47,023 nt of DNA from Chthonomonadaceae bacterium (lineage in GTDB: Bacteria > Armatimonadota > Chthonomonadetes > Chthonomonadales > Chthonomonadaceae). How positions within the stretch are numbered: the first letter of the stretch is position 1; the number at the start of each line of letters is the position of its first letter. Positions 6,376 through 33,152 of this stretch are shown here, piece after piece. A program made the position numbers and the translations under genes. The DNA lies in contig JANXSG010000186.1 of NCBI GenBank assembly GCA_025352825.1, positions 1-47,023 of the forward strand, given 5' to 3'. The notes under the pieces are model-generated. The model saw only the letters and a program-made list of their open reading frames with translations. It made no database searches and was not told the origin of the DNA.

Positions 6376-6400
6376 AACTCAAATTACCCTTTAGCTTTCA

Positions 6401-6443
6401 CTCCTTATCCCACTCCCAAAAAATCGCAGGGGTGGGATGAGGG
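6401..6443. repeat. Dispersed palindromic repeat, degenerate copy
   Basis: TTATCCCACTCCC, an A-rich loop, then GGGGTGGGATGAGGG. It lies 25 bases past the stop of the glycosidase gene and may serve as part of its transcript end. It ends with GATGAGGG like the copy at 212-255. Confidence 0.55.
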
Positions 6444-6510
6444 CAGAATTATTTGGATCATTAACTGATGTTAGACAGGCGAGTAGTTCATCCAGAGCAG
6501 TTTGGTTTTC

Positions 6511-6717
6511 GCGACGGGCTAAAGGGGTTGTGAAAGTAATCCAAAATAGTTCATCTCGCATTGCCAGGCACTGAAGTACCTTTTTTGGAGGTCTGCGACC
6601 AGCCGTCCTCCGGACGGAATCGCGTCTGAAAGACGCCTGTTTTTTGTTGCCGGGAGTTTTCAAATCCCAGAAATAGTCGAATATGGGATTACTTTCACAT
6701 CCCCTTTAGCCCGTCGC
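6511..6717. repeat. Fold-back element with 32-bp inverted ends (MITE-like)
   Basis: The arms at 6511-6542 and 6686-6717 are complementary at 31 of 32 positions and begin GCGACGGGCTAAAGGGG. The 143-base interior holds two further small hairpins: CCGTCC-TCC-GGACGG about 6603-6617 and GCGTCT-GAA-AGACGC at 6622-6636. There is no open frame of note. The size, long terminal inverted repeats and lack of genes fit a miniature inverted-repeat transposable element; a structured RNA is the alternative. Confidence 0.8.
6622..6645 (+). terminator. Intrinsic terminator inside the fold-back element
   Basis: A 6-bp stem GCGTCT-GAA-AGACGC is followed by CTG and six T. It would end transcripts running rightwards from the glycosidase gene 250 bases upstream. 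It lies inside the MITE-like element, so it may be carried by it. Confidence 0.6.
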
Positions 6718-6726
6718 AGAAACCCT

Positions 6727-6810
6727 TAACTTAACCCCTATTCTCCCGGCCCCCGCTGCAAGGCTGCTCGATAGCTCGCAAGGGAGAGGGGGACGGAGGG
6801 TAAGGTTAAA
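6727..6810. repeat. Dispersed palindromic repeat, long-loop copy
   Basis: The outer arms AACTTAACC and GGTTAAAG flank CCCGGCCCCC, a loop with GCTCGATAGCTCGCA, and GGGAGAGGGGGACGGAGGG. A 26-base segment (6765-6790) is identical, inverted, to 28899-28924 in front of pheT, so the two copies are recent relatives. Confidence 0.7.
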
Positions 6811-6941
6811 GGCCATTACTTATGCAAACCTTGATACACAATGCTGAACAGTTACCGTTTAAGAATTATTACGCACTCGGTATAAAACTGAGACGTTGGA
6901 AACCTATCGCGAGCCCCTCTGCGGACTTGGGCTACCGTTCT

Positions 6942-7715
6942 CTACTCCTTGTCCGTTCGCTGAGCAAGAAAGATTACTGCTCCACAGAGAAATAGAAGCA
7001 GGGTAAACATTACTCCCTGGCCGCCGATATGGGATCCGAAATCGTTAACAAGGAAGTCTAATCGATCAATAAGTAAGGCTATTCTGGCCATCATAGTCGA
7101 ACCGAAAATTGCGCCAAATGTGAACATCATCATCCAGCGTCCAGCCTGGGCGCTGCGTTTCAGAACTCTATTGTTCTGTTCTATCGAGAAGAAGAAATAG
7201 CTCATAACACAGACCAGAATAGTCATAAAAATAAGATTGTTTATGGCATCCGGAACGCTGAGGGCCTTTGATACGAGAAGCCCCGTTTTGTCGTAAATGG
7301 CTTGATGAGGCCAGAGCGGCTTAAACGATGTAGGAATCTGAGGCCAGTAGTCATTGACGAAACCTTGGAATGCCAGGCCAGAAGAGGCCCCGAGGATAAA
7401 TCCGATCGACAACCGTGCAATCCAGCTCACCTTCTTGAAGAATATAAGATAGTAGAAAAGGCCGAATATAAGTACTCCTGCTTGCCACCACTCTCCCTTG
7501 TCCCATAGAGGAATCCACCATTTCGGGCGAAGGGTGTCAGTCCAGACATTACCCATGAGGTAACCCATTGAGATACCTAGAAACAGATGCTCAAAAAAAC
7601 GATACAGCTTGTTCTCTCGGTAGAGTATACTGAACAGGCCGAGAGTACAGAACGTCCCCAGCCAAATACTCATCACTTTTAAGTGTTCAGCAAGCCAGGG
7701 CGAAAATTCCGTCAA
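6942..7715 (-). CDS. Polytopic membrane protein, unknown (257 aa), last gene of six-gene operon
   Basis: About seven hydrophobic segments are visible: SIWLGTFCTLGLFSIL, FFEHLFLGISMGYLMG, WWQAGVLIFGLFYYLIF, ARLSIGFILGASSGLAF, INNLIFMTILVCVMSYFFF, RWMMMFTFGAIFGSTMMA and GVMFTLLLFLCGAVIFLA. I do not recognise the family and see no catalytic motif. The start overlaps the stop of the upstream gene by ATGA (7712-7715), so the two are translationally coupled. It is the 3'-most gene of the operon transcribed leftwards from 11068. A role as membrane partner of the neighbouring extracytoplasmic-domain protein is likely but inferred only from context. Confidence 0.8.
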   Translation of the reverse strand: MTEFSPWLAEHLKVMSIWLGTFCTLGLFSILYRENKLYRFFEHLFLGISMGYLMGNVWTDTLRPKWWIPLWDKGEWWQAGVLIFGLFYYLIFFKKVSWIARLSIGFILGASSGLAFQGFVNDYWPQIPTSFKPLWPHQAIYDKTGLLVSKALSVPDAINNLIFMTILVCVMSYFFFSIEQNNRVLKRSAQAGRWMMMFTFGAIFGSTMMARIALLIDRLDFLVNDFGSHIGGQGVMFTLLLFLCGAVIFLAQRTDKE

Positions 7716-8560
7716 TTTCTCCCCCTTACTGAAGAACTCATCCGCTTTTCAATCAACGTATAGATGTTACCCAGCAGAATCAACGCAATTATCAGCAGAT
7801 GTGCAACGGATGCAGATACACTCGCCGCACTAGCTTTGCCAATATACCCCAGCTTCTGCTCATACTCGATTGCTCCCTGCAGGCCAGGCATCATCCCCAC
7901 CAGCTGTCCGCTGTCCAGGCGATTGATCATTTCGGGAATCATAACCGAAGTAACTGCCGCCACCATCTTGAGATTATAGGAACCCTGCAGGTAATCAATA
8001 TAGGTTTCGGTGGTGGTAGAGCCGGAAACGTTGATTAGCATAGTTATGTCGTGAGCAGTATGAATACCGCGCATTACCGGGAGATCCTGAACGCGTTTGC
8101 CATTTATATCCATGCTGAGGGTAGTGGGAATGTCAGGTCCGAATCCCTTAAGAAAGTTCACCTGGTCCGTACGATATCCGAAATTTGCCCAGTCTACACC
8201 ATCAGTATAACCATACTCTTTTTGCATCCCTGTGACCATCTCCTGCATCAGCGTTTTAGCCTGCGGGTCGAAACAGAGGATTATAAAGTGTATTTTTTTT
8301 CGCATAAGATGAATCAGCAGAGCTTTACTCTGAGCGCGGTTTTCTCCACGTGTACTGGCGCTCCAATCTGCTCCAAATAGAACAAAACTATTCTGTGGAA
8401 GGGCTTCTACAACCTTATAGAGCTGTTCGGTCTGGCGGGAGATCGGGACACGAATCTGAATCGTAAAGAAAAAGGGAATAGTGATAGCAATGATCAGGAG
8501 CGTGTAGAGCACGCGCCTATCTATCCTATTCAGATATCTTATTACATTCCTAGTCTGCAA
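7712..8560 (-). CDS. Membrane-anchored extracytoplasmic protein, unknown (282 aa)
   Basis: An N-terminal hydrophobic segment (residues about 17-33, LYTLLIIAITIPFFF) and a C-terminal one (SVAHLLIIALILLGNIYTLI) flank a soluble domain of about 200 residues, which therefore probably faces outside. The domain alternates strands and helices in a Rossmann-like way: NSFVLFGADWSAS, ALLIHLMRKKIHFIILCFD, HDITMLINVSG and YNLKMVAAVTSVMIPEM. There is a conserved-looking GADWSASTRGE turn but no familiar catalytic motif. It overlaps the next gene by 4 bases and lies 32 bases after the previous one. Function unknown; possibly a ligand-sensing or substrate-binding part of a membrane complex. Confidence 0.75.
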   Translation of the reverse strand: MQTRNVIRYLNRIDRRVLYTLLIIAITIPFFFTIQIRVPISRQTEQLYKVVEALPQNSFVLFGADWSASTRGENRAQSKALLIHLMRKKIHFIILCFDPQAKTLMQEMVTGMQKEYGYTDGVDWANFGYRTDQVNFLKGFGPDIPTTLSMDINGKRVQDLPVMRGIHTAHDITMLINVSGSTTTETYIDYLQGSYNLKMVAAVTSVMIPEMINRLDSGQLVGMMPGLQGAIEYEQKLGYIGKASAASVSASVAHLLIIALILLGNIYTLIEKRMSSSVRGRN

Positions 8561-8592: not shown

Positions 8593-9411
8593 TTAGCTGT
8601 CGAAAAATGCTCCACGTTCGAGCCCGAGCCAAACTCGGAGCGCTACTGCAAGATTTCCTATCCCTATCCCAAAAGCGATCGCACGAACAGATGCTGAACT
8701 AGCCTTGGTCAGAATCCAGTCTCTAATAATCTCAACCCGGAAGTTATGCCAGAATCCATGATCAGGCAGGTGGATAGTTAACTGCTGGCCGAGTGCGATC
8801 TGCCCGAGCATCACTACCATCGCGATTACCATCAGCAGAGTCGCCTCCCCAGTCCGTACACGGAATGCCCTGTACGATGCTGACACGAGGAAGAACGCGA
8901 CCAATGCAAACATAGTCGAGTCGAGCGCCTGATACAACCCTTCGAAAAGAAGCATGTACAAATTTTTATTAATCAAATTAGGGTGCGCCTGCTTCAGAAC
9001 CGCGAGCGTGAACATCGCTATCATCGCAATGAAAAAAACTAAACTATTTAGTTTTCCTTCTTTTGCGTGAAGCAGCCGTTTACCATGTATCTGGCAGAGA
9101 TTGATAGTACCCAGGCCGATAGTCCAGCCCGCAATTACGGAGAGCATATTCGCGGCGGGTGAAATAAACGGTGTTAGAAAGTTGCCCATGTGCTTTGGGC
9201 TTCCGGGAATTGGCATGGAATGGGTAGGCCAAAAATACTCCACCGCGTAGTATAGGCCGCCGAGAAACGTTACAATTCGTATAAGAGGTCGGCGTAGTGC
9301 GTGGGGCAGAGACTGAAGTATCGCAATGAGAATTCCGGCAAGGGCAAAACAGCCCAGTATTGCAATATACCAGGAACTGCCATGTAGAGGATGAAAGAGA
9401 TTTGAGAACAA
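8593..9411 (-). CDS. Polytopic membrane protein, unknown (272 aa)
   Basis: About seven hydrophobic segments are visible, among them SWYIAILGCFALAGILIAIL, NMLSVIAGWTIGLGTINLC, LVFFIAMIAMFTLAVL, STMFALVAFFLVSASYRAF, LLMVIAMVVMLGQIAL and VRAIAFGIGIGNLAVALRV. No known transporter motif is seen. It lies 12 bases after the DUF6754-like gene and 32 bases before the next gene. Together with the 257-residue protein it makes two dissimilar polytopic subunits in one operon, as expected for a heteromeric membrane complex. Confidence 0.75.
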   Translation of the reverse strand: MFSNLFHPLHGSSWYIAILGCFALAGILIAILQSLPHALRRPLIRIVTFLGGLYYAVEYFWPTHSMPIPGSPKHMGNFLTPFISPAANMLSVIAGWTIGLGTINLCQIHGKRLLHAKEGKLNSLVFFIAMIAMFTLAVLKQAHPNLINKNLYMLLFEGLYQALDSTMFALVAFFLVSASYRAFRVRTGEATLLMVIAMVVMLGQIALGQQLTIHLPDHGFWHNFRVEIIRDWILTKASSASVRAIAFGIGIGNLAVALRVWLGLERGAFFDS

Positions 9412-9423
9412 GTTGACTGCTCG

Positions 9424-10212
9424 CTAGCTAAAGAGATCTAAAATCGTCTTCCCCAGTGAAGAACCTGCCATCTGTGAGAAAGTTATAGCTGCAGATCCTA
9501 AAATTACTATAATTAGGAGCAGCCCCTTCGCGATATCCTGGCCCACGAGGCTTCCAAGCGCGGTCGGCTCTTTCGAGAGATATGCGCTGGCCGCATAGAA
9601 CTCATCCCCAATGATAACGTAGTCGCATGTGGCAATGAAGAAAGGTATCTGCATGGTGGCCGGTGTTCCTGCTATCTGGATAGCACCCACCTGATTTCCA
9701 GATTCTGCAATGATAAGCGACTCGGCGTAGTAGTTGCCGAACATGAAAGTTGCGCCAGCCTTTTCACGCCATATCAGTCCGGCAACAGCTGCCGCATATG
9801 AGAATTGGTTGTTGGTTAGAAAACGGATATCCTCGGTGTTGTAGAGATCTGGCCGGCCTTCCAGATTATATGCCTCTCGCACTGCTTCCTGTGTTACAGG
9901 AAGCATCTGAGGATCAAACACCGGTAGTACAGCCTTTGTTGCGAATTTAGCTGAAGAACGAACTATATAGGTGATAATTGAGAGAGCTTGCAGCGTTACG
10001 ATCTCTATTCCTGCCCGAGCCGTACCAAGTCCGGTTGTACAGACCATGGGCCTCCCCATCTCCGTAGCTCTGCCAATAGCCTCTTCGATTGCTGTCAGTC
10101 CATGGATTCGCCGGATTTTAATCTGTTTCCAACGTGCTGTTTGTATCATCACCACGATGCAGGTACTGAAAAGTGGAACCATGATCCGAACTAATGGGCT
10201 TGCGTGTTCCAT
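9424..10212 (-). CDS. Membrane protein resembling DUF6754 (262 aa)
   Basis: The N-terminal hydrophobic segment (PLFSTCIVVMIQTAR) and the C-terminal one (GLLLIIVILGSAAITF) flank a conserved-looking soluble core. The core has PMVCTTGLGTARAGIEIVT, ITYIVRSSAKFATKAVLPV, NQFSYAAAVAGLIWREKAG, FMFGNYYAESLIIAESGNQ and CDYVIIGDEFYAASAYLS. From memory this matches the family called DUF6754, found in scattered bacteria with no known function; I cannot verify it here. Its stop abuts the next start (10212/10213). The strongly patterned core suggests an enzyme or ligand-binding function at the membrane face. It is the most recognisable member of the operon and the best query for finding related loci. Confidence 0.8.
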   Translation of the reverse strand: MEHASPLVRIMVPLFSTCIVVMIQTARWKQIKIRRIHGLTAIEEAIGRATEMGRPMVCTTGLGTARAGIEIVTLQALSIITYIVRSSAKFATKAVLPVFDPQMLPVTQEAVREAYNLEGRPDLYNTEDIRFLTNNQFSYAAAVAGLIWREKAGATFMFGNYYAESLIIAESGNQVGAIQIAGTPATMQIPFFIATCDYVIIGDEFYAASAYLSKEPTALGSLVGQDIAKGLLLIIVILGSAAITFSQMAGSSLGKTILDLFS

Positions 10213-17242: not shown

Positions 17243-17860
17243 CCTAACAACCTACATACAATTATCACATTGATATTAGTAGGTTTCGAGTGCTCACTGT
17301 TGAACATTTGCACTTACCGTTGCCGCTCGCGCATTTTTTTCCAACTCCGTGTGCCAGTAAGCCATCTGCTCATCACCAGTCAGCGTGCTCAGCCTATCCT
17401 GAATCTCTCCTTGTATTACCTCGGCATCTTCACACAATCAAAAGTCCTCGTCTTCATTTTTAATTACCCCCAGCAAAGAATAAATGGCGACTTTGCCATA
17501 TCCCTCCACGGAATTAACCACATTATAGAATGGGATTTTGCGAAAATTAACAATATCGCGGAAGTTCCTCCTGACGACCAAGGTACATGGCTGACCGCGG
17601 CCCCTGCGACAAGAAGCGCATCAATATATGATTTTCCAAGAACAATTCCAGCAGGAATTCGAACAGATTCTACCGAATCTTTATGTACTATGTACCTATT
17701 ATATCTCTATCTCGTACTACTATTTCCCAGCTACACATCCCTAAGATGCGTGATCGGGCGGAGCATAAAATCGTGAGTTTCTCGGCGCTTTCATTACTAT
17801 CATCTTCTTGCTAATTCATGGGACATTTTGGATATTCCCACCATTCTCGAAACTACCATT
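17243..17860. other. Intergenic region with decayed genes
   Basis: A gap of about 620 bases with lower GC than its neighbours. On the minus strand it holds a broken antitoxin-like gene (17294-17457) and above it a short open stretch (about 17480-17650) that encodes no recognised protein. A plus-strand frame (17270-17776) is present but has no family features. The region looks like the scar of an accessory insertion. Confidence 0.5.
17294..17457 (-). pseudogene. Frameshifted small antitoxin-like gene
   Basis: From ATG 17457 the minus strand encodes MKTRTFDCVKMPR and then stops. In the adjacent frame the sequence continues VIQGEIQDRLSTLTGDEQMA, YWHTELEKNARAATV and ends at 17294. Joined by one frameshift, the product resembles the short proteins beginning K-T-x-T-F-D-C-V-x-M that occur with toxins or in plasmid-like clusters of cyanobacteria and Chloroflexi. 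The frame break near 17416 suggests decay. The family assignment rests on pattern memory. Confidence 0.4.
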
Positions 17861-19516
17861 ATGAATACACTCTACTATGGCGATAATCTCGAAATCCTGC
17901 GCAAGTATATCAAAGACGAAACAATAGATCTTTGCTATATCGATCCACCCTTCAACTCAAAGCGCAACTATAACCAGATTTATAACAATATAGGCGGAGA
18001 GGACAGTGCGCAAGCCCAGGCATTTACTGATACCTGGGAATGGGATGAACAGGCCAATATCGGATATTCGGAAATTCTCGCAAATCACGATGGACGTTTC
18101 GCAGCTCAAACGGTTGATCTTCTAAAGGGGCTTAAGCCTGTCCTGAAACAAGGCAGTTTACTTGCTTACCTAGTTAGTATGACCCTGCGCATGAATGAAA
18201 TTCATCGCACACTTAAACCTACAGGCTCATTCTATCTGCATTGTGACCCGACAGCCAGCCACTACCTTAAGCTTATTCTCGATGCGATATTTGTTGCAAA
18301 AGGTGGACACTTCCTGAACGAAATAGTTTGGTCAAGAACCAATGCTCACAATGTTGCTTCAAAATACTTCCATCGAGTTCAAGACACAATTTTCTTCTAT
18401 ACCAAATCTAAGAATTATACTTGGAATACCCCTTATACAGATTATTCTCCACAACAGTTAAAACGCTACTCTCCTGACCCCGATACCGGTCGTATGGTTA
18501 CAGGGCAGGATTTAACTATGACAGGAAATAAACATCGCAACTTTGCTTGGCGTGGATCTACTCCGCCACCGAATAGGGGTTGGGGGCTTTCGGAAGAGCA
18601 GCTTGAAGCATTATGGGAACAAAGACTGATTTTGACGAAACAAGATGGAACTCCTCGCCTTGACGGACGCAAAGTGTTTCTCGATGAGAAACAGGGCAAG
18701 CCTATCGGTACAATATGGTCAGATATCGAGAGAATTGGAAATACCTCGTCTGAGCGTCTTGGGTATCCTACACAAAAGCCTGAAGCTCTCCTCGAAAGAA
18801 TTATCGCTGCTTCAAGTAATGAGGGTGACACTGTACTGGATGCCTATTGCGGATGTGGCACAACTGTAGCTGTCGCGGAACGCCTTAATCGTAAATGGAT
18901 TGGAATCGACATTACCTATCAGAGTATTGCTCTCATTCTGCGTCGTCTAGAAGCGCAGTATGGCAAAGGAATTCTCGAAACCCTCGCTTTGAACGGCGTG
19001 CCCAAAGATATGGAAGCTGCGGTTGCACTCGCGCTCAAAAAAGATGATCGAGTACGTAAAGAATTCGAGAAATGGGCAGTTCTTACTTATTCTTATAACC
19101 GTGCAGTCGTAAACGACAAAAAGGGAGGCGATGGAGGTATTGATGGAACTGCCTACTTCCTCACTAGCCAAGACACTAATGCGAAAGTCGTATTTCAAGT
19201 CAAAAGCGGAAACGTAGGGCGAGGTGATATCGCTAAACTCAACTCTGATCGACTCCGAGAAGAAGCCGAACTAGCAGTATTACTCACCTTGAAAGAGCCA
19301 ACGAGAGGCATGAGGGAAGAGGCGAGTGGTATAGGAACTTATACACATCCTAATATGCATAAAAATTATCCACGACTACAGATTGTTACCATTGCTGAGA
19401 TGATTGAACTAGGCGCACGACTCGATATTCCACTTCCTCTTGAGGTTCTAAAGACGGCAAGAACCCTTACGGAAAAAGTTCCTCACCCCGAACTCTTCGG
19501 CAAGGATGATGCATGA
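17861..19516 (+). CDS. Fused DNA methyltransferase / Mrr-like nuclease (551 aa)
   Basis: The N-terminal part is a beta-class amino-methyltransferase: motif IV DPPF (YIDPPFNSKRNY, about residues 26-37) comes first, then a long target-recognition region, then the SAM-binding motif DAYCGCGTTVAVA (about residue 326) and RKWIGIDIT. After residue 400 a second domain carries GGDGGIDG (about 422) and VFQVKSGNVG (about 443), the D-(E/Q)xK pattern of Mrr-type nucleases. The single chain probably methylates and cuts DNA, with no separate partner gene near. ATG 17861 gives the conserved start; a TTG 11 codons upstream exists but no Shine-Dalgarno sequence is seen for either. Base use is AT-richer than its neighbours, suggesting transfer. 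Confidence 0.87.
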   Translation: MNTLYYGDNLEILRKYIKDETIDLCYIDPPFNSKRNYNQIYNNIGGEDSAQAQAFTDTWEWDEQANIGYSEILANHDGRFAAQTVDLLKGLKPVLKQGSLLAYLVSMTLRMNEIHRTLKPTGSFYLHCDPTASHYLKLILDAIFVAKGGHFLNEIVWSRTNAHNVASKYFHRVQDTIFFYTKSKNYTWNTPYTDYSPQQLKRYSPDPDTGRMVTGQDLTMTGNKHRNFAWRGSTPPPNRGWGLSEEQLEALWEQRLILTKQDGTPRLDGRKVFLDEKQGKPIGTIWSDIERIGNTSSERLGYPTQKPEALLERIIAASSNEGDTVLDAYCGCGTTVAVAERLNRKWIGIDITYQSIALILRRLEAQYGKGILETLALNGVPKDMEAAVALALKKDDRVRKEFEKWAVLTYSYNRAVVNDKKGGDGGIDGTAYFLTSQDTNAKVVFQVKSGNVGRGDIAKLNSDRLREEAELAVLLTLKEPTRGMREEASGIGTYTHPNMHKNYPRLQIVTIAEMIELGARLDIPLPLEVLKTARTLTEKVPHPELFGKDDA

Positions 19517-19655: not shown

Positions 19656-21566
19656 CTATCCACCGCACGAAAACTGAACCTTTCCGAAATTCCAGACATT
19701 GACGCCGCTGCTGTCTTCGACGGCATGGACTATCCCAGTCTGTCGCGTGCCGAAATAATCACCGGGTATCCATAGGCCGTTAGGCGTCGCGTACCCAGAC
19801 CATGGCTGAAAGGGTGTTACTTCGAAAGTGCCATCGCCCTTGGAAATCCAGATATTTGCGTTATCTTCTCCATCCACTGCATGAAGTATGTCAGTTTTTC
19901 CATCTCGATTCCAATCACCTGCAATCCATGTCCCATTTGGGATTGCATATCCGGGCCACGGGCTGAATGTGCGTACATCGAATGTTCCGTCTCCGTTCGA
20001 AAGCCATACATGTACTCTATCCGAATTATCTACTGGGTGGAATATATCCGCTTTCCCGTCACCGTTAAAATCACCTATCAGCCAGTCGCCATTCGGCACG
20101 ATATAGCCCGGCCATGGATTAAAGTTTTTTACGTTGAAGGTGCCGTCACCATTCGAGAGCCATACGTTAACGCCATCAGTGCCATCGACCGCATGCACTA
20201 TATCCGCTTTGAAATCGCCGTTAAAATCTCCGATGTACCATTTACCGTTCGGAACAGCATATCCACCCCACGGGCTGAATGGTTTCACATTGTAGGTTCC
20301 ATCGCCGTTAGAAAGCCAGACATTTACACCGTCGCTGTTATCCACCACATGGAGGATATCAGATTTTGCATCCCCCGTGAAATCGCCTGCCAGCCACTGC
20401 CCATTAGTAACTATATAGCCTTGCCACGGGCTGAATGGCTTTACATCGTAAGTTCCATCACCTCGCGAGAACCACGAATTTACACCTTCGCTGTGATCTA
20501 CAGCGTGAACCACATCACTAGCTCTGTCTCCATTATAGTCACCGACTATCCACTGGCCATTAATTACTTTATAGCCAGACCAGGGTGAAAACGACCGCAC
20601 ATCAAAAGTGCCATCTCCGCGCGAAAACCATGTATTTACACCTTCGCTATCAGATACAACATGCAGAATATCGGTATGGCCATCTCTATTGAAATCACCA
20701 GGCAGCCATAGTCCGTTTGTGACCGCATACCCCTGCCATGGGCTGAAGCTGTTTACATTGAAGAAGTTTCGATATGTCCATAATGAGCAGTTTCGTTTGA
20801 TATTGTCCGCGTAGTATTGCACCGTGCCAAATCCCAGATTATCGTCTTTCCAGGCACAGAGATCGCCCCCTTCATCAGATGGCATTCCCGGAACCGTCCA
20901 TCCTGTGCCTGGGAAGGGATCCGTGAACGCCTCCATAATCTCATGCGAAGTAATTGATCCCCATCCGTCCATCCCTGACCCGCACACTCCTCCCTCAGGA
21001 GGCATGGGGCACAAAGCCCAGAACTCATTCGTACCAAACGCGCTATGTTTACCGCACCAGCCACCTTTTACCCTCTGGTTATATTTATCAAAATCTATTC
21101 CTTTAGTAAAAATTAAAAATAGTCTGTTAGCACTAAACTGTGGCAGCTGCCCAATCAGCTGTAAGCCTACTATCTTCCGTTTGAGCTGTTCGTCATCAAT
21201 AAAAGCAGGCGGATTGATCTCTAAATGTACTGCGCTGAGATGAGCGCAGCCGCAGTTGTATTGCCAGATAGTGGGGATTTGGCCTAAAGGAGCGCCTGCA
21301 CCGGAAAGATATGCGGCAAGGCTGCCGAGATAGCCCTGCATGGCATCGATATCGCTCTGAGTAAAGTTTCCCCAGTAGAAGGACACAAGTTCCGCATTTA
21401 CCAGCAGACTGCCGTTTTTATAGGTGAGGGCGGTAAAAGGATCCATCCCTGCATCCAGTCCCACAGGGATATCTGCGAGTTTAATGCCGATGGAACCAGG
21501 GTTTGCGCTTGGTGCGGCTTTCAGTCGAGCAATAATATCTCTCAAGTCCTGTCTATTCGATTCCAT
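19656..21566 (-). CDS. Protein with metallopeptidase-like domain and seven VCBS/FG-GAP repeats (636 aa)
   Basis: The start ATG 21566 follows AAGGAG with a 7-9-base spacer. There is no signal peptide. The N-terminal 280 residues contain SHEIMEAFTDP, a motif of a zincin-like family with a SHE..EA.TDP core, plus many Cys (QYNCGCAHLSAVHLEI, GGWCGKHSAFG, GDLCAWKDD). Then seven repeats of about 51 residues follow, each with FSPWxGY, NGxWxxGDFNGD and VNxWxSxGDGT; the sixth keeps the DxNxDG calcium loop and the last is degenerate. The repeats come from recent tandem duplication, visible as a 153-bp period in DNA. Extracellular action without a signal suggests export by a signal-independent system. 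Confidence 0.82.
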   Translation of the reverse strand: MESNRQDLRDIIARLKAAPSANPGSIGIKLADIPVGLDAGMDPFTALTYKNGSLLVNAELVSFYWGNFTQSDIDAMQGYLGSLAAYLSGAGAPLGQIPTIWQYNCGCAHLSAVHLEINPPAFIDDEQLKRKIVGLQLIGQLPQFSANRLFLIFTKGIDFDKYNQRVKGGWCGKHSAFGTNEFWALCPMPPEGGVCGSGMDGWGSITSHEIMEAFTDPFPGTGWTVPGMPSDEGGDLCAWKDDNLGFGTVQYYADNIKRNCSLWTYRNFFNVNSFSPWQGYAVTNGLWLPGDFNRDGHTDILHVVSDSEGVNTWFSRGDGTFDVRSFSPWSGYKVINGQWIVGDYNGDRASDVVHAVDHSEGVNSWFSRGDGTYDVKPFSPWQGYIVTNGQWLAGDFTGDAKSDILHVVDNSDGVNVWLSNGDGTYNVKPFSPWGGYAVPNGKWYIGDFNGDFKADIVHAVDGTDGVNVWLSNGDGTFNVKNFNPWPGYIVPNGDWLIGDFNGDGKADIFHPVDNSDRVHVWLSNGDGTFDVRTFSPWPGYAIPNGTWIAGDWNRDGKTDILHAVDGEDNANIWISKGDGTFEVTPFQPWSGYATPNGLWIPGDYFGTRQTGIVHAVEDSSGVNVWNFGKVQFSCGG

Positions 21567-21885
21567 TCGTATCTCTCCTTGCACTCGGGTAGGTGAAGTT
21601 CGCAATACTATAGTGAAAAATCAAAACATTATTAGGAATATTACTGGGAAGTCGTCTGAATAATTAGTATATCCTACATTGGGATGCAATAAGTGTGCGA
21701 TTGGTCACGCACATCATGTGTATTAACTCACTATCCTCACGCACGCGCTATCGTTTACACCTCCGAATAGGCTGGATGATCCTATTATAAATAAAGCCCA
21801 TTCATTCCGATCTATACCTCTCGTATCATTTAATGGAGAAGTCTAAAACGAAAAGAATGGGCTTAAGAAGCAATGCGTGAAGAAA
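21567..21885. other. Intergenic region with long-loop inverted repeat
   Basis: AAGCCCATTC (21794-21803) and GAATGGGCTT (21855-21864) are perfect complements separated by 51 bases, just past the stop of the Met-rich peptide gene. They may form part of its transcript end. I see no gene or recognisable promoter in the rest of this stretch. Confidence 0.5.
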
Positions 21886-22161
21886 CTACATCTTGCCTTT
21901 TTCACCAGACATCTTATCGTGCATCATCTTATCGTGCATCATTTTGCCATGCACCATCTTCCCATGTTTCATTTTACCGTGCATTTTTTTGCCGTGCATC
22001 ATTTTTCCGTGCATCATTTTTCCTGATGCCATTTTGTGGGTAGCCATCTTGTCTTTGCCCATTTTATCGGAGTCCATCTTGTCCTGTGCAAACGCAGGCA
22101 TCAGAGTAGCCGAAGTTAAGAGAAGCGCTGTGCAGGCAATCGCGAGCTTGTGACGTAACAT
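21886..22161 (-). CDS. Exported Met/Lys/His-rich pentapeptide (MxKDx-type) repeat protein (91 aa)
   Basis: ATG 22161 follows GAGGAG with a 7-base spacer; the longer frame from 22191 lacks this. Residues 1-25 are a signal peptide (LAIACTALLLTSATLMPAFA). The mature part of about 66 residues is made of 5-residue repeats of the type HGKMM/HGKMK/HDKMM and holds 17 Met, about one in four. Such proteins are known as pentapeptide MXKDX repeat proteins, of unknown role. Its position 71 bases downstream of a YedY/MsrP-like enzyme suggests a sacrificial methionine sink for oxidants, as with MrpX of Azospira. Metal binding through Met and His is an alternative. Confidence 0.85.
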   Translation of the reverse strand: MLRHKLAIACTALLLTSATLMPAFAQDKMDSDKMGKDKMATHKMASGKMMHGKMMHGKKMHGKMKHGKMVHGKMMHDKMMHDKMSGEKGKM

Positions 22162-22193
22162 TGTTATTCTCCTCAATGAAGTGTGATTCATTT

Positions 22194-22215
22194 AATGGCG
22201 ACTTTCCCCGCCATT
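22194..22215 (-). other. Small hairpin between the molybdoenzyme and Met-rich peptide genes
   Basis: AATGGCG and CGCCATT pair (7 bp) around an 8-base loop in the 71-base gap. There is no T-run, so it may be a processing or stabilising structure rather than a terminator. Confidence 0.5.
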
Positions 22216-22232
22216 GTAGGAAGTACGAGACA

Positions 22233-23030
22233 TTAGTGTCCCGAGTACCAGTCGTACCCTCGTTCCGCCCAGAAATCTGGCGGTCGTTGGTTTGTAAATC
22301 GAATAGTTCCGATTCGCTTTATATGCTTAATCCCATATTTTACAGGGATTACAAGCCGCAGCGGTGCACCATGATCCTCAGATAGTGGCTCACCATTCAT
22401 TTCATAACAGAGCAGAGTCTGCGGATGAAGTGCACTCGGCATGTCCAAACCCACGTAGTATTCATCACCTGGAGTCGCCATAGCCACATATTCGGCTAGA
22501 TCGTCCGGTTTTGACTGAATATCTGGCTGAGAGCCGCTGCGAGTCATGGGAAGATGTTTGGCAGCAAAATCAGAAAACTTAACCCCTCCCCAGTGAACTA
22601 TCTGGCTCCAACCCTCGATACATTTGAGTTCGGTCACCATCTCCGTATGAGGCAACTTCTTGATATCAGCCATGGTAAGTGTTATAGGTTCCACATGACC
22701 GTAAACACCCTCAACACTCAAGTTCCACCCATCCGCATCCAGCTCGGCATCTAAACCATCGTTTCCATTTGGTCTGGGTACACCCGCCATCGCTCTTGGG
22801 AACGTGGGGGCAAGCCTGCCGTTACTATAGTATTTACTTGCGAGTTTTTCATTAAACGCCAGGGCTCTTCGGAATGGCCACAGTGTACCATTGTTGTCCT
22901 CCTGAGCGATCAGCCACTGCCAGCCTAAAACCCCGCCAGTAACCACAACACCTGCCTGGATAAAGCTGCGGCGTGAAAGGATTCTGATCTGCTGTTCTGC
23001 ATCTAGTGATGACTTCTTTTTATCGCTCAT
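22233..23030 (-). CDS. YedY/MsrP-like molybdopterin oxidoreductase, Tat-exported (265 aa)
   Basis: A twin-arginine signal (LSRRSFIQAG, then VVVTGGVLGW) marks export with a folded cofactor. The SUOX-fold core carries the molybdenum-binding Cys in VTELKCIEGWSQIVHWGG, matching the RCVEAWSM site of YedY, and later EYYVGLDMPSALHPQTLL, MNGEPLSEDHGAPLRLV and KYGIKHIKRIGTIRF. It probably reduces methionine sulfoxide or another S/N-oxide in the periplasm. The gene overlaps the cytochrome b gene by ATGA (23027-23030), which supports electron supply from the membrane. The exact substrate is uncertain; a sulfite dehydrogenase role is the main alternative. Confidence 0.88.
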   Translation of the reverse strand: MSDKKKSSLDAEQQIRILSRRSFIQAGVVVTGGVLGWQWLIAQEDNNGTLWPFRRALAFNEKLASKYYSNGRLAPTFPRAMAGVPRPNGNDGLDAELDADGWNLSVEGVYGHVEPITLTMADIKKLPHTEMVTELKCIEGWSQIVHWGGVKFSDFAAKHLPMTRSGSQPDIQSKPDDLAEYVAMATPGDEYYVGLDMPSALHPQTLLCYEMNGEPLSEDHGAPLRLVIPVKYGIKHIKRIGTIRFTNQRPPDFWAERGYDWYSGH

Positions 23031-23824
23031 ACTTCCACCTCCGCGTTAGTAGTTCCCATCTGTAACGAGATTTCATGCGCTTCAGGTTCCGTATTAGTTT
23101 TTGCCGGTATTATCGGAACATCTTCCACTTCAATAGTTGTGTTCAGAATTAGAGGAGCTGTTATATCCTCAATACGAACTACTTCATATCCCGTGACCAT
23201 CGCCCGGAAGTTATTCCAGCCGGCTCGAACTACTTGAGTAATATGGATCACAAAGAACACACAGTAACCGATAGTGAGCCAGAAATGGATGAACCTCGCG
23301 ATCATATATCCGCCGAGCAGACTGGCAAGCCATGCGAACTGAACTGGTTTGTAGATGGCGAGCCCTGTAAGCAGAGAACCGGCTCCCATTAAGATAATAC
23401 TGGAATAGGCGATCTGCTGTGCGCCATTAAATTTACGCCTGGGAGGTTCCTTTATACTGAGACGCATGTCGTACAGAACTACCTGCATAGCCTCTCGAAT
23501 GGTATTTTTCCCTGGTACTAGATATCTCCACTCGCCAGATAGAGCAGTGTATATCACGTAGAGAATTCCATTGATTGCAAAGAACCACATGAATAGGAAG
23601 TGCCACGACATGCCTTCGGACAGCCTCTGTTTCATAGTGAACTTAGTGTAGAACCAGTCGGGAAATAGATGCAGCGGCCCCACATGATAGATATCGTTCG
23701 CCCAGTAGATCAGCAGTCCGCTCCAGATCATGATCATGAGCACAGGAAAATTTATCCAATGGAACCATCTTATCGCTAGTGGATGCTTCTTTTCAAGAGT
23801 TTTCATTTCAGTGCGCTGCTCCAT
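23027..23824 (-). CDS. Membrane cytochrome b (265 aa), partner of the molybdoenzyme
   Basis: The chosen ATG at 23824 shares one base with the stop of the redoxin gene (TGATG). The protein has four to five hydrophobic segments and His residues placed as heme ligands: KHPLAIRWFHWINFPVLM, SWHFLFMWFFAINGILYV, AQQIAYSSIILMGAGSL and ARFIHFWLTIGYCVFFVIHI. This is the bacterial di-heme cytochrome b561/hydrogenase-type b family. It would pass electrons from the quinone pool to the exported molybdoenzyme. The soluble, acidic C-terminal tail of about 50 residues is not part of the usual domain. Confidence 0.88.
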   Translation of the reverse strand: MEQRTEMKTLEKKHPLAIRWFHWINFPVLMIMIWSGLLIYWANDIYHVGPLHLFPDWFYTKFTMKQRLSEGMSWHFLFMWFFAINGILYVIYTALSGEWRYLVPGKNTIREAMQVVLYDMRLSIKEPPRRKFNGAQQIAYSSIILMGAGSLLTGLAIYKPVQFAWLASLLGGYMIARFIHFWLTIGYCVFFVIHITQVVRAGWNNFRAMVTGYEVVRIEDITAPLILNTTIEVEDVPIIPAKTNTEPEAHEISLQMGTTNAEVEV

Positions 23825-24414
23825 CAAGGTCTAACCTGCTCTTTGAGCAGCTCTTCTATCTTATTATATAATATATTTTCACCGCCGCCGTTATTCCACT
23901 CTAGTTCGCCTTCCCAATACTCCCGCACATGCCCGTTTTTATCAATGAGGTATACCGTGGGCCAGAACTGCTGTTTCCATCTATTCCAGTTTTTACCTGT
24001 CCTGTCTATCAAAACAGGATATGTAATTCCGATACGCTTTACTTCACGAAAAACGTTACTCGTAATTTTTTCTTCGTCTGTCTCAGGAGTGTGCACCCCT
24101 ATAATTTCTACACCTCGATGAGCGAATTTCTTCTGCCATCGAGTATATATGGGGAGGTTATGTTTACAGTTGATGCAGCCAAAAGTCCAGAAATGTACAA
24201 TAGTAACTTTTCCTTTTCGGCTGGATAACTTTATGGGAGACTTATCTGGGGTATTAATCCAGGATGTACCCACCAGTTCTGGTGCTGGAAGATCTAAAAT
24301 TACAGGATTGCTCTGTGCATTGACTCCTCCGCTGATGGCAAGGGCAGCGATACATAATCCCGCAACTATTCCATATTTCCCGAACAGACCATTCTTTTTT
24401 GAAAATCGGCTCAT
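23824..24414 (-). CDS. Exported TlpA/DipZ-like thioredoxin-fold protein (196 aa)
   Basis: A signal peptide (GIVAGLCIAALAISGGVNA) is followed by an AhpC/TSA-redoxin fold with the active site WTFGCINCKHN, a C-x-x-C pair at about residues 80-83, and the downstream WPTVYLIDKNGHV with the cis-Pro element. It probably reduces disulfides or feeds reducing power to a periplasmic partner. The next gene overlaps it by one base, so it is first of a three-gene operon redoxin, cytochrome b, molybdoenzyme. GGAG lies just before the ATG at 24414. Confidence 0.88.
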   Translation of the reverse strand: MSRFSKKNGLFGKYGIVAGLCIAALAISGGVNAQSNPVILDLPAPELVGTSWINTPDKSPIKLSSRKGKVTIVHFWTFGCINCKHNLPIYTRWQKKFAHRGVEIIGVHTPETDEEKITSNVFREVKRIGITYPVLIDRTGKNWNRWKQQFWPTVYLIDKNGHVREYWEGELEWNNGGGENILYNKIEELLKEQVRP

Positions 24415-24674
24415 TTACTCCGCCTCTCTGCATTCTTGTCAGTTTAAATGCAACGAACGGAGAATGAGTTCCAGGAAATTTGAAGGTTCACCCTCAATCC
24501 CGGCCCTTCTCCCTTCTTCACTCGTTCCTCGTTAGGGAGAAGGGAGCGAATATAGTCGTCATCACTTCGCAATAGAATAATCTAAATGCGAAGTGAAAAC
24601 ATAATCGCATTTGCTCCTCTCTCCCTCTGAGGCACGAGGGAATCAGGGAGAGATGCCGGGAGTGAGGGTACAAC
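24415..24674. repeat. Composite palindromic repeat region between the sigma operon and the redoxin operon
   Basis: Two dispersed-family palindromes (24486-24542 and 24607-24668) are arranged so that CACCCTCAATCCCGG at the left and CCGGGAGTGAGGGT at the right are inverted. Between them is a perfect 10-bp hairpin, TCACTTCGCA/TGCGAAGTGA (24562-24596). This may be one nested element about 180 bp long. It lies between the end of the anti-sigma gene and the redoxin operon promoter; I see no clear ECF promoter motif. Confidence 0.65.
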
Positions 24675-24926
24675 TTACTTAAGCTGCGCAGCGGCTAGCG
24701 CCTTGGTAACACGCTCTAGAAGAGAAGCAGGGAGATCGATTTTAGCAATTTTTTCGCGAACCGACCGAATTATTTGCGCTTCGAATTGATACTCCCCGGC
24801 GCACTCCTGACATGTTTTGAGATGTTCCTGAACTTTCACGATCTGCTCCGAAGTCAGTTCCCGATCAAGGTAGTCGTCTAAGAGGCTGAAAACATGTTCG
24901 CACATGTAGCGGCCGATCGATGTCAT
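24675..24926 (-). CDS. Zinc-finger anti-sigma factor (83 aa), downstream of the ECF gene
   Basis: A ZAS/zf-HC2 domain: MCEHVFSLLDDYLDRELTS with Cys at 9, then EHLKTCQECAGEYQFE giving H-x3-C-x2-C. This is the zinc-binding anti-sigma fold that holds the sigma factor inactive and often responds to oxidants through the Cys. The gene begins inside the stop of the sigma gene (ATGA, 24923-24926). There is no membrane segment, so it is a soluble anti-sigma factor, like RsrA. It is a paralogue of the protein upstream of the sigma gene. Confidence 0.88.
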   Translation of the reverse strand: MTSIGRYMCEHVFSLLDDYLDRELTSEQIVKVQEHLKTCQECAGEYQFEAQIIRSVREKIAKIDLPASLLERVTKALAAAQLK

Positions 24927-25528
24927 CGTAGTGCCCCGCTTTCTTCCTTAAGCGATTGCACGATGTTATTTTCAACTGCAAGATCCCAGAGTGATTTTTG
25001 AAGCAGCTTGCGCCCACGATGAAGCCTGGAGCGAACCGTTCCAACGGGAATATCAATAATATCAGCTATTTCCTGATACGATATCTCTTCCAGGAAATAG
25101 AGAGCACATACCAGCCGATAGTCAAATGGAAGCGATTCGATCGCCTGCTTTATCTGATCGATACTCATCCTATCCAGCACAAGTTCGGCGGGGTTATCAA
25201 ATTTTCGATGCAGTCCTTCTTTAGCCGTATGGGTATATAGATACAGGTCTTCGGCATCCTCCAGCGCGGTGACTTTAGGTTCTCGCTGCCGTTTTCTATG
25301 CAGACTATGGGCACAGTTCACAACTATTCGGAAGAACCAGGCCTTAAAATTGGTACCGAGTTGAAAACTGCCAAAACCACGAAAAGCAAGAAGTGCGGCT
25401 TCCTGAACCAGGTCCTCCGCCTCTTCTTTATTCCCCGACATGTGATATGCCATGGCATATGATTTAGCAAGCACAGGTTCCAGGAGGGCATTAAAAGTCT
25501 CAGCAGATCCTTTGGCTAGCATCTCCAT
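24923..25528 (-). CDS. ECF RNA polymerase sigma factor (201 aa)
   Basis: Region 2 is seen in LAKSYAMAYHMSGNKEEAED, LVQEAALLAFRGFGSF and NFKAWFFRIVVNCAHSLHRK; region 4 in LPFDYRLVCALYFLEEISYQ, EIADIIDIPVGTVRSRLHRG and RKLLQKSLW. It therefore directs transcription of its own regulon. ATG 25528 shares one base with the stop of the upstream anti-sigma gene (TAATG), and its stop overlaps the next anti-sigma gene. The presence of soluble zinc anti-sigma factors on both sides suggests redox control. The redoxin/cytochrome/molybdoenzyme operon and Met-rich peptide gene lie just downstream on the same strand and are candidate targets. Confidence 0.93.
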   Translation of the reverse strand: MEMLAKGSAETFNALLEPVLAKSYAMAYHMSGNKEEAEDLVQEAALLAFRGFGSFQLGTNFKAWFFRIVVNCAHSLHRKRQREPKVTALEDAEDLYLYTHTAKEGLHRKFDNPAELVLDRMSIDQIKQAIESLPFDYRLVCALYFLEEISYQEIADIIDIPVGTVRSRLHRGRKLLQKSLWDLAVENNIVQSLKEESGALR

Positions 25529-25788
25529 TAATGATTGTCCTTATTTCCTGACTCTAATTCGAGCAGTTGTTCAATTCGCTCGTAGATATCGATAGGTAAT
25601 ATGATCCTATTGAATTTTGCCCGTATACCATCAAGCGTCTCTTTTTCAAACTTAAATTTCTTTGAACAAGATTGGCACAGTTTGACATGCCTTTCAACGC
25701 GTACTAACTCGGTTGAAGAAAGCTCTCTGTCCAGATAATCATCCAGCCGTTTAATTGCGTCGTTACAAGAGTAAATAGTGAGCAGCAT
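25528..25788 (-). CDS. Zinc-finger anti-sigma-like protein (86 aa), upstream of the ECF gene
   Basis: Residues 8-41 follow the ZAS pattern: CNDAIKRLDDYLDRELSSTE, then RHVKLCQSCSKKF with H-x3-C-x2-C. The rest is a short helical tail, and no membrane helix is visible. It is about one third identical to the anti-sigma protein downstream of the sigma gene, especially DDYLDREL. Its stop overlaps the sigma start by one base. One sigma factor with two such proteins is unusual; they may sense different signals or form a heterodimer. Confidence 0.82.
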   Translation of the reverse strand: MLLTIYSCNDAIKRLDDYLDRELSSTELVRVERHVKLCQSCSKKFKFEKETLDGIRAKFNRIILPIDIYERIEQLLELESGNKDNH

Positions 25789-26097
25789 AAGCGTATAACC
25801 TCGAAACTTATTGTAGCAGGAATCATCTCTTCATGTATTAACATTCTATAATGCTCAATAATCTTAAGAAGTTCCTGCGTTCACCTAACCCCCGACCCTC
25901 ACAAGTGTCTTTTATCGAATACCTGACTCCAGATATTAAACCACAGAGACAGTAGAGTAGAGGAGGGTAAATTGATTGTGAGATCAAAACCATAGGGAAT
26001 TCTTAAAAAATGATCGGAGTAAACGATTCTGATAAGCATTTCTTAGCGAACTCTGTGTCTCTGCAGTTCAATAAACAAGTTTTGGGTATTAGCAGCC

Positions 26098-26177
26098 TTT
26101 ATCTAACGCTACTGCCCCCGGCCTCTTCCCTCCGAGAAACGAGGGGATCAGGGAAGGGGGTCAGGGAGTTAGATAAA
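26098..26177. repeat. Palindromic element with 10-bp perfect terminal repeats
   Basis: TTTATCTAAC (26098-26107) and GTTAGATAAA (26168-26177) are perfect complements flanking a dispersed-repeat core (TGCCCCCGGCCTCTTCCCTC, a loop, then GGGGATCAGGGAAGGGGGT). The loop GAGAAACGAGGGGATCAGGG resembles the copy at 24630-24650. This 80-bp unit shows clear boundaries and may define the mobile form of the family. Confidence 0.65.
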
Positions 26178-26226
26178 AAATTGAACAGATTAATTTGAGT
26201 TATGATGTAACCACATTAAATATTCA

Positions 26227-26255
26227 TTGACACAGGTTGAAAAATCTGGTACACT
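26227..26255 (+). promoter_or_regulatory. Promoter of the infC-rpmI-rplT-pheST genes
   Basis: TTGACA (26227-26232), a 17-bp spacer and TACACT (26250-26255, 4 of 6). The transcript would start near 26262, leaving about 80 bases before infC. Confidence 0.65.
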
Positions 26256-26342
26256 ACTGGCTGTCTGACGAGTAAGATTCTGTGTCGGAATCGTAGCCGT
26301 GAATCATTTACGCGTCTATGTGTTTTCGTCGGAGGGGCATCT

Positions 26343-26882
26343 ATCAACAAAGATTTTCGTGTAAACGAACAGATACTACGCGGCCCGCGCGAAACCAGAG
26401 TTCGCGACGTCCGTGTCATCGATGATGAAGGCCAGGCGTTAGGCATTTTGAATGCTCGCGATGCGCTGATTCTCGCTCAAGAAAAGGGATTGGATCTGAT
26501 TGAGGTAGCTCCTCAGGCCCAGCCGCCGGTTTGCCGAATCATGGATTACGGCAAGTATAAATATGAGCAGGGCAAGCGAGAGCGCGAACAGCACAAAAAG
26601 CAAAAGCAAGGTGAACTGAAAGATATTCGCATTGACCCTAGATATGGTATGATTGGCGACCATGATCTGCAGGTTAAAGTTAAAAATATCATTAAGTTTC
26701 TCGAAGATGGCGATAAGGTCAAAGTTGTTTTTCGGTTCTCCGGAAGGCAGATCACTCACCCAGAATTAGGGAAACAGAAGCTTGATGAAATCATAGGGAT
26801 GATTGCCAATGTTGGCCAGGTTGAAAGACCTCCGACCATGGAAGGCCGTCTTATGATTATGATTCTAAGCCCAAAAGCGTAG
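26343..26882 (+). CDS. infC: Translation initiation factor IF-3 (179 aa), ATC start codon
   Basis: The frame is homologous to IF-3 well upstream of the first ATG: INKDFRVNEQILRGPRETRV, RDVRVIDDEGQALGIL, then NARDALILAQEKGLDLIEVA and the C-terminal domain (KDIRIDPRYGMIGDHDLQVK, HPELGKQKLDEI). There is no in-frame ATG, GTG or TTG at this end. The codon ATC at 26343, seven bases after GGAGG, aligns with the start of Bacillus IF-3 (SKDFIINEQI). IF-3 binds the 30S subunit and rejects non-canonical start codons, so infC genes with AUU or AUC starts repress themselves. It is first of the infC-rpmI-rplT set. Confidence 0.92.
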   Translation: MNKDFRVNEQILRGPRETRVRDVRVIDDEGQALGILNARDALILAQEKGLDLIEVAPQAQPPVCRIMDYGKYKYEQGKREREQHKKQKQGELKDIRIDPRYGMIGDHDLQVKVKNIIKFLEDGDKVKVVFRFSGRQITHPELGKQKLDEIIGMIANVGQVERPPTMEGRLMIMILSPKA

Positions 26883-32579: not shown

Positions 32580-33152
32580 ATGAAATCCGCTCTTTGCGTA
32601 TTTGTAATTACTACTGCATTCGCTCTCACAACGGGCTGTGGACATCATCTAGACCTGGTACAGATAACCGCTAGACTGGCGCTATCACCAGACAGTAACT
32701 CGGAGAAATCTAAAACCCAAAAGAAGATTAAAATCGTGAAAGTGGTTCATTCGGATGCAGAGTGGCGCAAAATCCTATCACCTGAGCAGTACCATGTCAC
32801 TCGGGAATCAGGTACGGAGGCGGCATTCAGCGGTATATATTGGGAAAATCATGTCAAAGGGAAATATGTATGTGTAGGCTGTGGACTGGATCTGTTTGAT
32901 TCCAAGACGAAATTTGAATCAGGAACTGGCTGGCCGAGTTTTTGGAAGCCCGTCAGAAAAGATTTTGTGATAAACCGTGTCGACAGCAGCTTGGGATCGG
33001 AAAGAACAGAAGTACTCTGCGCCAGATGTGACGCCCATCTTGGGCATGTATTCGATGATGGACCTCAGCCTACAGGACTGCGATACTGCATGAACTCAGC
33101 CGCGCTGAAGTTCTTTCCAGCTAAACCGGAAGTCAATCCTAAGAAGAGATAA
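32580..33152 (+). CDS. msrB: Lipoprotein methionine-R-sulfoxide reductase (MsrB, 190 aa)
   Basis: The N-terminus is a lipoprotein signal ([15 protein letters not shown], lipobox LTTGC). The catalytic domain begins near [20 protein letters not shown]. It has the zinc Cys pairs CVGC and [35 protein letters not shown] and the catalytic Cys in [11 protein letters not shown]. It reduces methionine-R-sulfoxide in envelope proteins. ATG 32580 follows GAAAGG. It lies apart from the YedY-like operon but serves the same chemistry. Confidence 0.94.

Follow-up and report, generated by a model that had tools for sequence, protein, structure and literature searches.

A seven-gene ECF sigma factor and YedY-type locus of Armatimonadota as a probable methionine-sulfoxide cycling module

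The window, a stretch of 47,023 nucleotides (contig JANXSG010000186.1) from an Armatimonadota metagenome-assembled genome with a 4.87-Mb assembly, includes a seven-gene locus encoding an extracytoplasmic function (ECF) sigma factor, two zinc-finger anti-sigma factors (ZAS1 and ZAS2), a redoxin, a membrane cytochrome b (cytB), a YedY-like molybdoenzyme and a methionine-rich peptide. Judged from sequence comparisons, the locus is probably an oxidant-inducible, envelope-facing module for methionine-sulfoxide cycling. Its role in methionine-sulfoxide repair is strongly supported by the genomic context, and hypochlorous acid (HOCl) is a plausible oxidant, one of several. The original prediction, a defence module against reactive chlorine, had placed all seven genes on one strand within about 4 kb, and all were found on the minus strand at 21886-25788 (Table 1).

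The genes likely form two transcription units and not one. The first, ZAS1-ECF-ZAS2, extends from 25788 to 24675; its genes overlap at their starts and stops, the sigma and ZAS2 genes by four bases. The second, redoxin-cytB-YedY-peptide, extends from 24414 to 21886; its redoxin, cytB and YedY genes overlap by four bases each and are followed after 41 bp by the peptide gene. About 260 bp separate the two units. Also MoeA, TatC and DsbD/CcdA-type genes are encoded in the genome.

Recurrence of the locus and its link to methionine sulfoxide

A scan of GTDB genomes with the YedY sequence alone found 80 loci, and relatives added more. The loci of the scan spanned Armatimonadota, Abditibacteriota, Acidobacteriota, Planctomycetota, Bacteroidota (mostly Hymenobacter) and other groups, and the same-family relatives included Chthonomonadaceae and Chthonomonas records (L059, identical to G009, and L090, identical to G013). 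The cytB-YedY pair was nearly universal among the loci, occurring in roughly 90 genomes from several phyla. The proposed extension of the system beyond Proteobacteria is real.

Enrichment of neighbouring genes was calculated from 96 non-duplicate loci picked by YedY alone, including five proteobacterial plasmid loci, by comparing their frequency per base up to 2.5 kb from the pair with that in the more distant flanks. ECF genes were found 28 times near the pair and five times in the flanks (9.4-fold, p-value 3e-8), methionine-rich open reading frames (ORFs) 17 and two times (14-fold, p-value 4e-6; 16 of the 17 on the same strand), redoxin genes 14 and three times (7.8-fold, p-value 2e-4), and zinc anti-sigma genes 19 and six times (5.3-fold, p-value 1e-4). 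These p-values are guides only, because loci from related species are partly interdependent. The association of the partners with the pair exceeds chance. The methionine-rich peptides recurred next to the pair across several phyla, and the partners occurred in different combinations: ECF-ZAS-cytB-YedY in L059, ECF-ZAS-MsrB-cytB-YedY-peptide in L035, redoxin/MsrB-cytB-YedY-peptide facing ZAS-ECF in L057, ECF-ZAS-cytB-YedY-redoxin/MsrB in L052, and ECF-ZAS-peptide-cytB-YedY in L102.

Genes of the methionine sulfoxide reductases MsrA or MsrB were present in 15 of the 96 loci, and 17 of the 18 matches were located within 1.3 kb of the cytB-YedY pair. In four loci (L057, L052, L049 and L072), belonging to an unclassified bacterium and Acidobacteriota, one ORF beside the pair matched both the redoxin and the MsrB profiles, and a domain scan confirmed the fusion in L057, L052 and L072. 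These natural fusions suggest that the window redoxin, whose best match in the PDB was DipZ of Mycobacterium tuberculosis (E 2e-33), is an electron donor for an exported MsrB. One such MsrB is the lipoprotein at 32580 noted in the original prediction, which proved to be a SelR-family protein with a lipobox. It is encoded outside the operon, about 8 kb from the redoxin gene, and its homologue is part of the module in L035 and of the redoxin fusions; it is likely a functional partner of the module. The fusions and the neighbouring MsrA and MsrB genes provide independent genomic support for methionine sulfoxide as the substrate of these short YedY enzymes. This matters for the large group of genes in environmental bacteria that are annotated as 'molybdopterin-dependent oxidoreductase' and whose function is uncertain. 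The window genome (G000) also has a cytoplasmic MsrA (contig C214) and a second, apparently exported MsrA with a signal peptide (contig C39). In L050 and L072, MsrB or redoxin-MsrB is divergent, located on the opposite strand approximately 30 to 105 bp upstream of cytB-YedY.

In the YedY-like protein the presumed molybdenum ligand Cys137 and the surrounding E-G-W residues were invariant across 33 homologues. The nearest solved structure by sequence was Escherichia coli MsrP/YedY (1xdq, E 1e-20), and also the predicted fold (pLDDT 85) was nearest to MsrP/YedY (1xdy, Foldseek E 9e-15, TM approximately 0.55). The enzyme was compared with five proteobacterial homologues, the Azospira and Brucella proteins themselves not being among them, and was 32-34% identical to these (33-34%, nearly end to end, for four of the five). 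The window and proteobacterial short YedYs have in common the motifs CxEGWS and DM..(A/S)LHPQT and the C-terminal GYxW(F/Y), of which the last is absent from E. coli MsrP. In the tree, E. coli MsrP was separated from the window and proteobacterial groups (100/100) and the window group formed its own clade (92/90); the deeper branching order is unsure because of several long branches. The cytochrome b was 30-33% identical to its proteobacterial partners, with which His23, 76, 181 and 195 are conserved. Identification of the cytochrome as YedZ/MsrQ was rejected, as it matched PF01292 and the b-type hydrogenase/formate dehydrogenase cytochrome models and not MsrQ.

A signal sequence with an apparent AFA|Q cleavage site precedes the mature peptide. 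The predicted count of 17 Met in about 66 mature residues was exact, and these residues also include 17 Lys and 8 His. At the threshold applied, the MXKDX model matched no other sequence of the assembly. Membership of the strict pentapeptide MXKDX family TIGR02953 was rejected, the score (Table 1) being below the 41-bit cut-off that the Caballeronia (59.5 bits) and Rahnella (91.2 bits) peptides exceed.

Sigma factor, anti-sigma factors and promoter-like element

The sigma factor exceeded the cut-off of the ECF superfamily and matched also the SigH_actino model with 135 bits, below its cut-off. Its gene is flanked on each side by a zinc-finger anti-sigma gene, which is an unusual arrangement. 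The expectation of soluble zinc anti-sigma factors held: ZAS1 and ZAS2 are both short zf-HC2 proteins with no membrane segment on inspection, and both have the zinc motif C-x25-H-x3-C-x2-C (HCCC), the spacing of which is that of RsrA. The best solved-structure match of ZAS2 was also RsrA (5frf, E 4e-4). The strict RsrA equivalog was rejected, since both proteins scored below its 62.5-bit cut-off. The anti-sigma factor of ECF16 sigma factors is of the membrane NrsF/DUF1109 type; this type is absent from the locus, both anti-sigma factors there being short zf-HC2 proteins.

Both transcription units are preceded by the element GGAAC-N16-GCATT, the spacer sequence differing between the two copies. 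GGAAC is the usual -35 motif of ECF promoters. Given GGAAC, an equally spaced shared 5-mer was found in none of 5000 dinucleotide shuffles, and with GGAA[CT] in 0.18%. An unprimed two-box search of both upstream regions gave approximately 19 shared pairs, most of them surely due to chance, and the claim is therefore restricted to the GGAAC-primed element.

In other loci, five copies of GGAAC-N16-GCNTW were observed upstream of the module against 0.41 expected (p-value 7e-5), and other spacer lengths occurred zero to one times. In G003 and G012 (GCATT) and in G015 (the one-base variant GCGTT) the element stands before the ECF orthologue, which in all three is located at a distance from the module, and the same element was found before the ECF orthologues of L151 and L152. 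It is present also upstream of cytB in G003 and G015. In the form GGAAC-N16-G[CT]NTT it preceded the module in four of the five evaluable genomes with an orthologous ECF gene, the window included, and in none of the nine without, some of which are close relatives (Fisher p-value 0.005; G009, with its contiguous ECF and cytB genes, was omitted). Before the exported MsrB it was found in three of the six genomes with an orthologous ECF gene (G003, G015 and G009) and in none of the 16 without. In the Acidobacteria loci L049 and L052 the region upstream of the ECF gene lacked the element, which is therefore not universal. The link between the ECF sigma factor and the operon is supported by this promoter-like element common to both.

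In several Hymenobacter loci (L081, L085 and L109) an ECF gene begins immediately downstream of yedY, which suggests a separate ECF type tied to the pair.

Known systems, proposed mechanism and alternatives

The order cytB-YedY-MXKDX was found in Caballeronia, Rahnella and Burkholderia (peptide unannotated there), and Methylobacterium has the same parts with MsrB and MsrA. This proteobacterial trio of cytochrome b, short YedY and MXKDX peptide adjoins NrsF-type sigma pairs or two-component systems (PMC8315932, PMC8550376). BcrXQP of Brucella is controlled by the ECF16 pair BcrS/AbcS, is induced by HOCl and confers resistance to it (PMC8315932). Like the window, it has a methionine-rich peptide, a YedY-like enzyme and a membrane cytochrome in an operon beside the controlling ECF/anti-sigma pair; unlike the window, its anti-sigma factor is of the ECF16 kind and not of the soluble zinc type, and no redoxin is described. 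The Azospira SigF/NrsF system with yedYZ and mrpX is hypochlorite-responsive according to the summary in PMC4623255, and shares with the window a sigma-controlled YedY-type enzyme (YedY1) and a sacrificial methionine-rich peptide (MrpX). As far as that summary goes, the window differs in its anti-sigma type, MHGKM repeat, added redoxin and phylum. In the uropathogenic E. coli (UPEC) operon c3566-c3567-c3568 (OrhK/OrhR) the gene order is that of the window, cytochrome B, YedY-like enzyme and methionine-rich peptide, whereas control is by a two-component system; the operon is H2O2-induced and protects against tert-butyl hydroperoxide (PMC8550376).

An ECF sigma factor with a small RsrA-related anti-sigma factor over an Msr regulon has a precedent in Haemophilus influenzae RpoE2, whose 67-aa anti-sigma factor is RsrA-related and which controls envelope MsrAB in the HOCl response (PMC7907618). 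RpoE2 and Neisseria meningitidis SigE resemble the window in this pairing with envelope MsrAB (PMC7907618), but no cytB-YedY-peptide operon is described for them, and redoxin and MsrB are encoded separately in the window and fused in its relatives. E. coli MsrPQ likewise pairs a Tat-exported molybdoenzyme of the same fold with a membrane cytochrome; MsrP is 31% identical to the window enzyme and longer at the C terminus, and MsrQ is a flavocytochrome whereas the window cytochrome is of b561 type. By gene content, the window joins the operon core known from the Brucella, UPEC and Azospira systems to a sensor type like that of H. influenzae. No description of the module in these phyla was found among open-licence papers, and the papers found report the sacrificial methionine-peptide system from Proteobacteria only. 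The operon core is now seen in Armatimonadota, Abditibacteriota, Acidobacteriota, Planctomycetota and Bacteroidota, with another sensor class and a redoxin-MsrB route, and the module supplies a concrete, testable regulon and promoter.

In the proposed mechanism the sigma factor would be held by the cytoplasmic RsrA-type zinc anti-sigma factors, whose family and motif were identified above, and oxidation of the Cys/Zn site would, as in RsrA, set it free. From the GGAAC-N16-GCATT sites found, the sigma factor is predicted to transcribe its own operon and redoxin-cytB-YedY-peptide, and in relatives, where sites were also found, the exported MsrB. The secreted peptide may act as a sacrificial oxidant sink, as its composition and the cases of MrpX and BcrX suggest. 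The cytochrome b561 probably donates quinol electrons to the Tat-exported molybdoenzyme, which by analogy with MsrPQ and BcrQP would reduce the methionine sulfoxide of both the peptide and envelope proteins. A second, thiol-based route, in which the exported redoxin reduces the exported MsrB, is suggested by the redoxin-MsrB fusions. A more specific proposal, held tentatively at slightly less than even chances, is that, outside Proteobacteria, an MrpX-type sink/repair operon has come under the control of soluble RsrA-like zinc switches (two around one sigma factor here), with a regulon joining a quinol-fed molybdoenzyme and a redoxin-fed MsrB under one GGAAC-N16-GCATT promoter type and a cytoplasmic thiol signal driving methionine repair in the envelope.

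Several observations weigh against the cycling module. The YedY-like enzyme reached 97.5 bits against the 207-bit cut-off of the MsrP model (NF003767), for which E. coli MsrP scored 504; the short YedYs of the proteobacterial MXKDX loci were likewise under the cut-off (66-89 bits). Strict MsrPQ identity was rejected because the MsrP cut-off was missed and the cytochrome is not MsrQ. Of the predicted likeness to Azospira MrpX/YedY1, the gene logic stands, with the order cytB, short YedY and MXKDX in Proteobacteria. The closest ECF orthologue (55-59%) was located away from the module in three relatives. The promoter-like element was first spotted post hoc in the window and was therefore tested in other genomes; most genome-wide matches of its pattern fall within genes, and the window MsrB has no copy within 350 bp upstream.

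As to the trigger, the chances are evenly balanced that the module repairs or scavenges methionine sulfoxide in response to peroxide, photo-oxidative or general disulfide stress and not to reactive chlorine, which would oppose the hypochlorite claim only and leave the repair mechanism intact. The anti-sigma factors resemble RsrA, a thiol/disulfide sensor, and are cytoplasmic, and the UPEC operon responds to peroxides (PMC8550376), whereas the Brucella version and, in the summary available, the Azospira version respond to hypochlorite (PMC8315932, PMC4623255) and the H. influenzae Msr under an ECF sigma factor with a small RsrA-related anti-sigma factor is HOCl-induced (PMC7907618). That the ECF and anti-sigma factors are chance neighbours with other targets is very improbable, slightly more so than the two readings weighed below. 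The two transcription units would allow it, as would the genus g4, in which the nearest ECF orthologue lies elsewhere (among unrelated neighbours in two genomes and adjoining his-type genes in one), but the enrichment of ECF genes around the pair is 9.4-fold, L059, L035 and L052 contain tight runs of ECF-ZAS-cytB-YedY, and the element is common to ECF and operon in the window and also in g4 genomes with the genes apart.

It is unlikely that the Met/His-rich peptide buffers copper(I) or silver, with the cytochrome, molybdoenzyme and redoxin serving metal stress or cuproprotein maturation. The 8 His and 17 Met of the MHGKM-repeat peptide are typical Cu(I) ligands, and Burkholderia L149 has a TlpA/SCO/CcdA cluster close to the pair; however, annotation and inspection of the loci read revealed no copper transporter, copper chaperone or copper regulator nearby, the MHGKM pattern is missing from the proteobacterial and several other peptides (with Ser/Asp/Lys between the Met residues instead), and the recurring neighbours are MsrA, MsrB and redoxin-MsrB. 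An identity of the YedY-like enzyme as a sulfite dehydrogenase or as another respiratory enzyme for sulfoxides or N-oxides, with an incidental peptide, is equally unlikely. The enzyme belongs to the sulfite-oxidase fold family and a b561 cytochrome could accept electrons as well as donate them, but the matches to the SorT and SorA models were weak (57 and 49 bits) compared with that to MsrP, MsrP/YedY is the nearest solved structure by both sequence and fold, and the methionine-rich peptide, MsrA and MsrB recur beside the enzyme.

Feature coordinates and neighbouring sequence

Table 1. Positions of the module genes, candidate promoters and related reading frames in the window and in other sequences
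Sequence	Feature	Position	Strand	Basis or location
Window	Secreted Met-rich peptide, MHGKM repeats, MrpX-like	21886..22191	-	TIGR02953 MXKDX model 21.2 bits; composition
Window	YedY-like molybdopterin oxidoreductase, twin-arginine leader SRRSF	22233..23030	-	PF00174 (Oxidored_molyb) E 7e-29
Window	Membrane cytochrome b, b561/Ni_hydr_CYTB	23027..23827	-	PF01292 E 2e-18
Window	Exported redoxin, DipZ-C/TlpA-like, active site GCINC, 196 aa	23824..24414	-	AhpC-TSA/Redoxin
Window	Candidate ECF promoter, redoxin-cytB-YedY-peptide operon, GGAAC-N16-GCATT	24447..24472	-	33 bp before redoxin start
Window	ZAS2, soluble zinc-finger anti-sigma factor, 83 aa	24675..24926	-	RsrA model 48.7 bits; zf-HC2
Window	ECF sigma factor, 201 aa	24923..25528	-	sigma70-ECF superfamily 97 bits (over cut-off); Sigma70_r2, r4_2
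Window	ZAS1, soluble zinc-finger anti-sigma factor, 86 aa, zf-HC2	25528..25788	-	PF13490 E 1.6e-9; RsrA model 33.7 bits
Window	Candidate ECF promoter, ZAS1-ECF-ZAS2 operon (autoregulation), GGAAC-N16-GCATT	25850..25875	-	62 bp before ZAS1 start
Window	Lipoprotein MsrB, SelR family, lipobox LTTGC	32580..33152	+	PF01641 E 2e-50
G000 contig C39	Signal-peptide-bearing MsrA	25801-26520	-	
L057	Redoxin-MsrB fusion ORF	6013-7005		beside cytB-YedY pair
L052	Redoxin-MsrB fusion ORF	7194-8287		beside cytB-YedY pair
L049	Redoxin-MsrB fusion ORF	8862-9965		beside cytB-YedY pair
L072	Redoxin-MsrB fusion ORF	5795-6961		beside cytB-YedY pair

The gap between the two operons (24491-24668), directly upstream of the redoxin promoter, has CCCTCAATCCCGGC at one end and an inverted near-copy, CCCTCACTCCCGGC, at the other. 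An inverted-repeat search of the gap found no pair above the threshold despite the opposite orientation of these ends, which suggest a small inserted mobile element resembling a miniature inverted-repeat transposable element or a repetitive extragenic palindrome (MITE/REP-like).

Outside the locus, a DNA methyltransferase is encoded at 17828-19516 on the plus strand; its C-terminal part resembles a restriction-associated domain (GGDGGIDG), and the gene is possibly a single-gene modification or defence system. The reading frame at 19656-21605 on the minus strand contains approximately seven tandem VCBS/FG-GAP-like repeats (FSPW.GY...GDFNGD..ADI) after a domain of unknown kind.

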